Assembly: GCF_008974265.1 (NCBI RefSeq)
Contig: NZ_BKZW01000001.1
Coordinates: forward strand, 3,906,001-3,970,000
Direction of reading: 5' to 3'
Origin: Dictyobacter vulcani
GTDB taxonomy: Bacteria > Chloroflexota > Ktedonobacteria > Ktedonobacterales > Ktedonobacteraceae
DNA length: 64,000 bases
Shown: positions 300 to 34,212 of the stretch, piece after piece
Numbering within the stretch: the first letter of the stretch is position 1
Layout: the number at the start of each line of letters is the position of its first letter
Program-made: the position numbers and the translations under genes
Notes under the pieces: model-generated
Seen by the model: the letters and a program-made list of their open reading frames with translations, nothing else
Told to the model about the DNA's origin: nothing
Databases searched by the model: none

Positions 300-342
300 G
301 TCTTGTGCCTGCGAACTGTTCACGTCCGAGCAGGCACAAGAC
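300..342. repeat. 43-bp palindromic hairpin, left copy
   Basis: The arms GTCTTGTGCCTGC and GCAGGCACAAGAC enclose a 17-base loop containing GTTCACGTCCGA. An identical 43-bp copy lies at 751-793, so the two copies flank the MITE-like element exactly. The left copy is itself preceded by AACGTATTGG, which is the right-end motif of that element. This suggests that element and hairpin once formed a tandem repeat unit. Confidence 0.75.
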
Positions 343-750
343 CCAATACGTTTCGTTGAAGGAGAGAACCTCAACGGTATGGCGTGGCGTCGTGTACGTC
401 GAGAGGGCGCCACACGCGGAGGCCGCCCTGCTGCGTTTGCGCAGGCCAGCGTGCAAGAACGACGCGCAGTGCTGTGGCGCCTACACGGATCGTGTGTGCC
501 GTGGCCAGCGTGCTCGCGTAGCAACGTGGTGGGAGAGCGGGTGGATCCTCCCCGTACCTTCTCGAAGAGGATCACGACACAGGATCCGTCTCGGGGTAGG
601 CGCCACAGGCATGCGATGCTCGTTGAGCCCCTCGCTCCACGAGAACGCCGCATGCCGGCCTCGCGTGTGGCGCCCTCTCCACGGACGATCCGCTGCTTTT
701 TTTTACAACAGCTTTTGCAACCACAAAAGTGCTTAAACGAAACGTATTGG
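343..750. mobile_element. MITE-like palindromic element, copy A (408 bp)
   Basis: The ends are perfect inverted repeats (CCAATACGTTTCGTT on the left, its complement on the right). Inside are nested inverted arms at about 401-422 and 658-680 (core GGGCGCCACACGCG), plus an inner pair around GTGGCGCC. A closely related copy with the same end points and internal order is at 32969-33363. It has no transposase gene and no credible reading frame, so it fits a non-autonomous miniature element mobilised in trans. Each side carries the same 43-bp hairpin rather than a simple short target duplication. The function of the strong secondary structure is unknown. Confidence 0.7.
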
Positions 751-793
751 GTCTTGTGCCTGCGAACTGTTCACGTCCGAGCAGGCACAAGAC
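751..793. repeat. 43-bp palindromic hairpin, right copy
   Basis: Identical to 300-342 over all 43 bases and immediately next to the right end of the MITE-like element. The loop core GTTCACGTCCGAG recurs in other intergenic hairpins of this window (about 16043-16055 and, with one change, 32796-32812). Confidence 0.75.
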
Positions 794-909
794 CTGCCGT
801 TACGTTGGGAGACGTGCTTGCTGAACCCCAACGGAGCGACCAGGATGCGCTTACGTTGAACGTATTGGTTCTTTTCCCTGCTTTCCCCTTAAAAGACGGA
901 GGACTATGA

Positions 910-15681: not shown

Positions 15682-16223
15682 GAGCTATTTCTCCTCTAGA
15701 TGCGTTGTATTTATGCTTGTGCTTGTGCTTGTATTCGTGTTCTAGATGCATGAATCGTGCTTGTATGGTACGAGGTAGTAGCTCAGACGGAAGACGTGTG
15801 GGGGAGCGATGTATCTGGCCTTTGCGTTGGAGGACACGCCAATACGTTCACAGAGGGCTGAGCTACCGCTTGATGCTGCCTCCGTGAACGCATAGACAGG
15901 TGCAATTGTGCATTCGAACGTTCACAAGTCACTCCAACATGATCTGAATTTATTGGCTTAATTCATTTTCAGTATAACACATAAACCCGGATCAGTACAG
16001 AGCCTCGTACCGGTGTAGCGGCAGCGCTGGTCGCTGCGACCCGTTCACGTCCGAGTAAGCAACCTCCACGCAACGGCGCCTTCACGGCTGCCTCCGTTGC
16101 ACGTACAGATAGGTGGCTTTCTTATACGTGAAGGGGGGCAACGGCAAGCGTTCCCGCTACGTGGGGGGCCAGTGAGTACGTCCACGGGTCGCAGCGGCCA
16201 GCGCTGCCGCTACGACGGGATAT
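15682..16223. other. 540-bp intergenic region with repeats
   Basis: It contains a short microsatellite of TGCTTG units (about 15715-15731), an inverted pair GTAGCTCAG/CTGAGCTAC (15778-15786 and 15858-15866), one CCAATACGTT 10-mer (15839-15848) shared with the ends of the MITE-like elements, and a 30-bp inverted repeat listed separately. No gene is seen. The cysS promoter should lie within it. Confidence 0.5.
16015..16213. repeat. 199-bp segment with 30-bp inverted ends
   Basis: Positions 16015-16044 (GTAGCGGCAGCGCTGG...) and 16184-16213 are inverted copies with one mismatch in 30. The left arm runs into GTTCACGTCCGAGTAAGCA, the core found in the hairpins at 300-342, 751-793 and near 32796. 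It ends 10 bp past the metH stop and may work as a terminator, or be a small mobile repeat. Confidence 0.6.
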
Positions 16224-32753: not shown

Positions 32754-32968
32754 CCCCCATAATCCCATCGTACCGGCAGCCTTCACGGCTGCGACCAGTT
32801 CACGGCCGAGCAAGCAACGCCAACCACGCCACAGCAGAAGCCACCAGTTCCAGTCAATAAACTTGCATACATATGAGAAGCATGCAGGCCATGAGCGATA
32901 CGTGCTCAGTCATGGACCAGGCCTACTGGGGAACCTGCTTGGACGCGAACAGGTCGCAGCTGCAAGCG
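32754..32968. repeat. Dispersed hairpin repeats
   Basis: Around 32771-32822 is a copy of the short repeat with GGCAGCC-ttca-CGGCTGCGACCAGTTCACGGCCGAGCAAGCA. A degenerate copy in the opposite orientation is at about 32936-32959 (on the minus strand GCGACCTGTTCGCGTCC). Both resemble the hairpin cores at 300-342, 751-793 and 16015-16060. No gene is seen. Confidence 0.5.
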
Positions 32969-33363
32969 CCAATACGTTTCGTTGAAGGAGATAACCTCAA
33001 CAGTATGGCGTGGCGTCGTGTACGTGGAGAGAGCGCCACACGCGGAGGCCGCACTGCTGCGTTTGCGCAGGCCAGCGTGCAAGAACGACGCGCAGTGCTG
33101 TGGCGCCTACACGGATCGTGTGTGCCGTGGCCTGCTCGCGCAGCAACGTGGTGGGAGATCGCGTGGATCCTTCTCGAAGAGGATCACGAAACAGGATCCG
33201 TCTCGGTGTAGGCGCCACAGGCATGCGATGCTCGTTGAGCACCTCGCTCCACGAGAACGCCGCATGCCGGCCTACGCGTGTGGCGCCCACTCCACGTATG
33301 ATTCGCTGTTTTTCTCCATAATGTTTTTTATGGTCACAAAAGCGCTTAAACGAAAAGTATTGG
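32969..33363. mobile_element. MITE-like palindromic element, copy B (395 bp)
   Basis: It begins CCAATACGTTTCGTT and ends with its near complement (one change, AAAGTATTGG). Flanks carry a perfect 9-bp direct repeat CTGCAAGCG (32960-32968 and 33364-33372), a typical target-site duplication, showing insertion as a unit into a hairpin region. Internal sequence matches copy A (343-750) closely except for short indels, with the same nested palindromes. It lacks any transposase gene. Confidence 0.8.
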
Positions 33364-33384
33364 CTGCAAGCGCTGCCAGTACAC

Positions 33385-34212
33385 TTAATGTCTGACGAGG
33401 CGTACAAGGGCTTCGGCGATGACCAGGAAGACAATATCCAGGGCCAGCAGGATACCAAGGGCGAAGTCGATGCGCGATGAGATAAATGTTGCCACGATGA
33501 GTAGCTCATTGAGCCGCTGGGCATACCAGATGGCTGCCAGGAATATTGCGAAGATAATAAGCATGCCAAGTACAAACCAGCGCGCTCCGTGCCAGTCTTG
33601 ATGGCTGGGCCAGAGTTCGGAGGTTACTGACAGAATCAGGTAAGGAGCGAAGATCAGCGTCCAGAGCGGCCAGCCAGTACGAATGATATGCCATTGCTGA
33701 TGGAGACCATCAAAGGGAATATCCCAGATGGTATAGCCGGTAGCGGCCCAGTAGAGAAAAATAAAAACTGCGATGCCGCCGAAGAGGGGGGCGACACCAC
33801 TAAAGCCGTCTCCTATATAGCTCATCAACCGTCCCTGCGGTCGAACATATTGCACTTCTCCCAGTTGTAGCGACTGTGGTCCATTGCGGCGAATCACGCG
33901 TCCGTTCGCTCCGCGTGGGGTGACCGGCTTGATACGGAAGAGGGTGACGCTGGTAATGCGAAATCCAAAGGGTGAGAAGAGGAGGACAACCAGGGCGTGG
34001 CTGAGTTCATGGACTATCACACCGGGTGCGTTGAGCCAGAACCAGATCAGCAAGCCTTTTTCGCGCATCGTGCGATAGCCGAACTCATCGACGCGCCGGC
34101 GCAACGCTTTGCGTGTCATGCGTAACAGGCTAAAGAGAACAAATACCCCTGCAATAATGAGCCAGGGTTGATAGGGAGCGATTTGCTCCATCAATTGGGT
34201 CTCTTGTGACAT
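33385..34212 (-). CDS. Membrane zinc metalloprotease, M50-like
   Basis: 275 residues with about six hydrophobic segments. The zinc motif HELSH is at about residue 68 inside a membrane helix (VIVHELSHALVVLLFSPFGF), as in site-2-protease relatives. A soluble loop at about 90-130 and GDGFSGVAPLFGG follow. No clear NxDG third ligand motif is visible. It starts 66 bp downstream of the MFS gene end on the same strand. Confidence 0.7.
   Translation of the reverse strand: MSQETQLMEQIAPYQPWLIIAGVFVLFSLLRMTRKALRRRVDEFGYRTMREKGLLIWFWLNAPGVIVHELSHALVVLLFSPFGFRITSVTLFRIKPVTPRGANGRVIRRNGPQSLQLGEVQYVRPQGRLMSYIGDGFSGVAPLFGGIAVFIFLYWAATGYTIWDIPFDGLHQQWHIIRTGWPLWTLIFAPYLILSVTSELWPSHQDWHGARWFVLGMLIIFAIFLAAIWYAQRLNELLIVATFISSRIDFALGILLALDIVFLVIAEALVRLVRH

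Follow-up and report, generated by a model that had tools for sequence, protein, structure and literature searches.

A large transposase-less MITE family of Dictyobacter vulcani inserts at the apex of REP palindromes

We analysed a 64,000-nucleotide window of contig C1 of Dictyobacter vulcani, in which two gene-less elements, copy A and copy B, stand together with short REP-type palindromes (Table 1). The first-pass annotation described copy B as a MITE-like insertion with inverted ends, a perfect 9-bp duplication on both sides and no gene, and all three points were borne out. The two ends differ by 1 mismatch over 15 bases, the same nine bases adjoin the element on either side, and the ORFs across it (e.g. 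32997–33575, minus strand) are only mechanical, with no credible gene among them. Family-type ends occur 4 times in the window, as against 0.04 expected by chance. The outer arms of the nested palindromic core of copy B are 84% complementary.

Table 1. Elements, ends, target duplications and REP sequences in the window (positions are those of the window)
Feature	Position	Strand	Remarks
43-bp REP-doublet spacer GTCTTGTGC-CTGC...GCAG-GCACAAGAC, left of copy A	300–342	.	duplicated at 751–793
MITE copy A, 408 bp	343–750	+	89% identical to copy B
Second 43-bp spacer copy, right of copy A	751–799	.	runs into CTGCCG (794–799)
Unoccupied REP GTACCGGCAG-CCTTCACGG-CTGCGACC..., upstream of copy B	32770–32812	+	C1:3938774; outer limit approximate
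Split REP at copy B, 3' half (reverse complement CTGCGACCTGTTCGCGTCCAAGCAGGT...)	32928–32959	-	GCAG abuts the duplication; defined by comparison with unoccupied REPs, outer limit approximate
Left 9-bp target-site duplication CTGCAAGCG of copy B (REP apex)	32960–32968	.	sequence
MITE copy B, full-length, 395 bp	32969–33363	+	sequence, self-match 100%, no transposase
Left terminal inverted repeat CCAATACGTTTCGTT of copy B	32969–32983	+	end-pattern search
Nested palindromic core of copy B	33021–33298	.	outer arms 33021–33063 and 33256–33298
Right terminal inverted repeat of copy B, CCAATACTTTTCGTT on the minus strand	33349–33363	-	end-pattern search
Right 9-bp target-site duplication CTGCAAGCG of copy B	33364–33372	.	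sequence
Split REP at copy B, 5' half (reverse complement GTACTGGCAG)	33373–33382	-	sequence

The match between copies A and B, also noted earlier, extends over the full length of copy A. The perfect duplication had been claimed for copy B only, and copy A indeed has no simple direct 9-bp duplication; a whole 43-bp REP-doublet spacer stands on each side of it. Because it is flanked by this duplicated spacer and not by a 9-bp direct repeat, copy A is probably a recombination product. The second spacer and the adjoining CTGCCG form an intact REP on the minus strand (781–799). The empty REP upstream of copy B is opposite in orientation to the REP that copy B has split, and the two make up an inverted REP doublet. 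More unoccupied REPs, an inverted pair, were seen at 16019–16037 and 16191–16209.

The host genome has 7.4 Mb in seven contigs, of which ∼3.2 Mb was read base by base. A search of the genome with copy B gave at least 40 scored strong matches among 139 candidates, the best other copy having 94% identity. Ends with up to 2 mismatches were found 205 times, compared to 20 for the reversed control pattern, and 59 end pairs carry exact 9-bp duplications. These copies, common ends and duplications are contrary to the refuting outcome named in the first-pass annotation and support the MITE reading of copy B. The elements form size clusters of 106–128, 147–193, 272–353 and 349–422 bp having ends of the same kind. 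The main groups are those of ∼350–422 bp (37 members, A and B among them) and ∼272–353 bp (20 members), besides the two short forms. The ∼400-bp family proposed from the window is accompanied by 350/273-, 147–193- and ∼106–128-bp relatives. The total comes to ∼110 gene-less elements in one genome. Their length below ∼600 bp, lack of a transposase, inverted ends, target duplication and many copies are the features by which bacterial MITEs are recognized. No similar sequence was found in the plasmids searched, and the single match in viral contigs was due to chance.

Alignment of 25 long copies (mean pairwise identity 88%) revealed a conserved palindromic core flanked by exchangeable left and right end modules. 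The modules (alignment columns 43–103 and 408–474) are present in several combinations, which suggests that recombination between the 400-bp elements is frequent. Within the 350-bp group most members share 97–99% identity, suggesting that this group moved recently. A long tandem array of GTGTAC-type hexamers adjoins a MITE at C2:123480–124910.

The distinctive part of the family is its targeting of the REP apex, which is absent from the first-pass annotation. When flanks were compared, GCAG was found to precede and CTGC to follow the duplicated 9 bp in nearly all cases. This N9 forms the apex of a REP-type palindrome, GTANCGGCAG-N9-CTGC or, in its fuller form, GTANCGGCAG-N9-CTGCGACC...GTTCACGTCCGAGCA, and the elements interrupt REPs at a single position, as do REP-targeting ISs of type 1 (Tobes and Pareja). 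The combination of target and end, GCAG-N9-YYAATAYNTTTC, occurs 219 times in the genome and 0 times with the reversed-pattern control. When 46 further genomes of the class were searched, the same pattern gave four scattered matches, with at most one per genome; the one in a genome of the same genus (G004) lies beside other repeats without a MITE and is not an element.

The 59 duplication pairs were picked only by their ends and the exact 9-bp duplication, with the context ignored. At least one REP half-site was present at 54 of the 59 (both at 35, one at 19, neither at 5). On reading the list, the cases with partial half-sites were mostly tandem neighbours or degenerate REPs, and ∼3 of the 59 look non-REP. 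The sampled DNA contained 126 unoccupied CGGCAG-N9-CTGC sites against 128 element ends adjoining CGGCAG. Positions 1 and 9 of N9 pair in 118 of the empty and 120 of the occupied sites, and positions 2 and 8 in 114/126 and 120/128, respectively, the pairing being through CG, CC/GG, GT/GC and GC/GC types; N9 thus closes as a hairpin in 90–95% of both sets. Elements stand in both orientations relative to the REP (10 and 7 versus 7 and 6).

The target palindromes are present in >100 near-identical copies, each of them short, with exchangeable pairs in the stem and a GTAN tag (GTAC, GTAG or GTAA), the fourth base of which is variable and not strictly that of GTAG. An ORF of 159 aa at C1:2181136–2181615 matches Y1_Tnp (PF01797, 28 bits; cut-off 23), the RAYT domain, and is flanked on both sides by REPs in opposite orientation. 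RAYT genes are known to lie between inverted REPs (PMC2817692, PMC3733652). These >100 near-identical copies and the RAYT between inverted REPs mark the target palindromes as genuine REPs.

REPs and a RAYT in the same genome, the occurrence of REPs as inverted doublets and the high structure of the element would also suit a REPIN-type origin, in which the mobile unit would be REP-element-REP in its entirety, 9-bp repeats included, and the RAYT would move it as single-stranded DNA. A REPIN unit, however, consists of two inverted REPs and a spacer, whereas the element here lies inside one REP and has inverted ends of its own; the N9 repeat is direct, not inverted, and always 9 bp long. Moreover, near-identical elements have different N9 and REP flanks: copies that are 97–99% identical occupy REPs with N9 such as CCTTCACGG, CACTCGTTG and CGACCAGCG, and have therefore moved independently. 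We regard a REPIN-type origin as very improbable.

We compared the predicted fold of copy B, taken as single-stranded RNA, with that of shuffled sequences. The first-pass annotation had stated that nearly the whole element folds into nested palindromes, and had proposed covariation between copies as a check. The strong nested fold was recovered (−201.6 kcal/mol; shuffle mean −147, z = −9.0; none of 100 shuffles reached this stability), but covariation was weak, the stem columns being mainly invariant. In the alignment of 25 long copies, conservation of paired columns is about double that of unpaired ones, and an excess was also obtained with the folds of seven single copies (p between 0.01 and 1e-7).

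This conservation of paired columns would fit a conserved structured RNA gene, or a regulatory RNA, dispersed in the form of a MITE. Cells changed on both sides of a pair, which number 42 as compared to 23 in shuffles, would point the same way, and the covariation score also exceeds that of shuffles; kinship among the copies can give such a pattern. Compensatory change was seen at 14 pairs, and the measure of pairs with change was not above shuffles (77/500). The outer stem pairs are almost invariant in the 25 copies and do not covary, and the end modules are freely exchanged. No Rfam family reached threshold; the sole match, to a miRNA model, reached 31 bits where the gathering score is 168 and was found on both strands, and we rejected a miRNA identity on these grounds. 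An RNA gene is therefore an unlikely reading. We concluded that the palindromic core is maintained as a conserved property of the family, and do not claim a functional RNA. Its role is most likely structural, in transposition or end synapsis, or in shielding from transcription.

A full-length IS sharing the ends and the 9-bp duplications had been predicted earlier. We looked for such a parent as end pairs 0.7–9 kb apart and did not find it, either in the ∼3.2 Mb read or among the strict REP-flanked ends listed, which cover all of C1 and C2 up to 1.45 Mb and include no unexplained long pair. Unlike a REP-targeting IS, the MITE family encodes no transposase of its own. All of the 1.7–2.5-kb candidates examined were MITEs with a nested IS110, IS66 or other IS, or a cargo element. 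Those at C4:245328–247834, C2:1190991–1193271, C2:1260691–1262923 and C2:1398399–1400720 are MITEs with a nested IS110 transposase, and C1:4115916–4118328 is a short MITE holding an IS with CCCACGGGATGCGCAACGA ends. The candidate at C1:2289817–2291566 is a 350-bp MITE carrying an IS66, which we consider nested because a second IS66 copy exists elsewhere. The two IS66-type ISs have 8-bp duplications (C1:2289930–2291478, inside the 350-bp MITE, and C2:994159–995706). At least four MITE copies contain an IS110-type transposase (∼418 aa) within their palindromic core; the MITE itself is therefore a target.

The cargo element is 1950 bp long (C4:158659–160608), has CCTATYAGGCCCGCC ends and sits in a REP apex with a 9-bp duplication, CCTTCACGG. 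It encodes no transposase but has a 222-aa ORF resembling a secreted protein, and there is no second copy in the genome. The sequence CCCATCAGGCCCGCC (8 occurrences), considered as an IS end akin to those of the cargo element, turned out to code for part of a DDE (IS1634-like) transposase.

It is conceivable that an autonomous IS, with divergent ends or at a position outside the DNA read, is still in the genome and made the insertions, in which case the family would not be an orphan. There are 61 DDE_Tnp_1 matches in the genome, ∼4.2 Mb lies outside the DNA read (including C3:280–560 kb and 600–640 kb), and the near uniformity of the 350-bp group suggests recent activity. Against this, the strict ends of C1 and of C2 to 1.45 Mb gave no unexplained long pair; the search of the ∼3.2 Mb read for any matching-ended element with an exact 9-bp duplication gave only nested or cargo elements and an unrelated 1312-bp IS; and no complete MITE-like end pair encloses a DDE_Tnp_1 gene in that DNA. 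We treat a resident IS as a serious possibility that falls short of even odds. On the DNA read and the strict ends of C1 and most of C2, the autonomous parent is likely absent.

Our preferred explanation, to which we assign a probability of roughly 85%, is that copy B is an orphan MITE moved in trans by a DDE transposase that cuts REPs at GCAG^N9^CTGC. The family as a whole was presumably moved in this way, by 9-bp staggered cuts. The element would move as DNA, and the transposase supplied in trans would recognize the ∼12–15-bp ends (YYAATAYNTTTC...). It would cut the palindromic REP with the two strands 9 bp apart and insert the element there, and gap repair would then duplicate the 9-bp apex. 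We infer the DDE step from two features, the inverted ends and the fixed 9-bp duplication; IS4, IS5/IS903, IS256 or a similar DDE family would be the candidate source of the 9-bp stagger. The transposase may read the REP either as a duplex, by its sequence, or as a hairpin extruded from it. The ∼3 non-REP sites among the 59 count against this explanation, as does the failure to find an autonomous element with these ends in the DNA covered, and so do pairs of elements standing back to back with one N9 between them. Such pairs were seen at C4:173553–174104, C1:2207605–2208358, C4:262410–262909 and C5:176460–177238, and could be due to sequential insertion at one apex or to recombination.

A more doubtful proposal is that the transposase recognizes the hairpin (cruciform) shape of the REP and not its sequence. 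Many different N9 would then be accepted provided that the inner stem still pairs, and the cut would fall exactly at the start of the apex. If so, the RAYT/REP system and the orphan MITE would form a dependent chain, in which one makes the landing pads for the other.

REP-targeting ISs are known from five families (Tobes and Pareja 2006, PMC1525189). Insertion on the axis of symmetry is among the reported modes: ISRm22, of the IS4 family, inserts on the axis of a palindrome, and ISPsy8 on that of one predicted hairpin (PMC1525189). Like the present family, ISRm22, ISPsy8, ISPpu9/10 and ISPa11 are found exclusively or almost exclusively at a fixed position within REPs; they encode a transposase, however, have repeats of 0, 2, 3 or 6 bp and are present in 4–10 copies (PMC1525189), whereas the MITE family is transposase-less, duplicates 9 bp that make up the whole apex and has ∼110 elements. 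Our literature search, which covered few subscription papers, turned up no report of a MITE family that inserts into REPs. Relative to that literature, the combination of ∼110 transposase-less elements with a 9-bp duplication equal to the REP apex is new, and of the genomes searched only one has it. With this family, REP targeting is no longer limited to few-copy ISs but includes a large transposase-less family. The ∼110 insertions resolve the target of the transposase to the single base, and do so where empty sites stand beside occupied ones. So dense a family, which is absent from the 46 other genomes searched in the class, prompts one to ask where the transposase originated and what became of it.

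As a MITE, the family resembles QMITE2 of Coxiella and MITEAba12, which are likewise below 500 bp and gene-less, with inverted ends, 7–9-bp repeats and a very stable predicted fold (PMC10969869, PMC6382973). Bacterial MITEs tend to be AT-rich and to integrate in AT-rich intergenic DNA (reviewed in PMC10969869); unlike these, the present family is GC-rich and confined to REPs, and no parental IS was found for it. The target REPs are of the GTAG-tagged kind, a superfamily reported from Chloroflexi, by their GTA(G/C/A) tag, short stem, exchangeable stem pairs, >100 copies, doublets and REP-flanked RAYT (PMC3733652, PMC2817692), but depart from it in that the fourth tag base varies and that, in the sampled DNA, about as many apices are occupied by a MITE as are empty. 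A REP that attracts a second mobile element is also known from QMITE2, into the REP part of which IS1111 inserts (cited in PMC10969869); there the IS enters a REP inside the MITE, whereas here the MITE enters a stand-alone REP.
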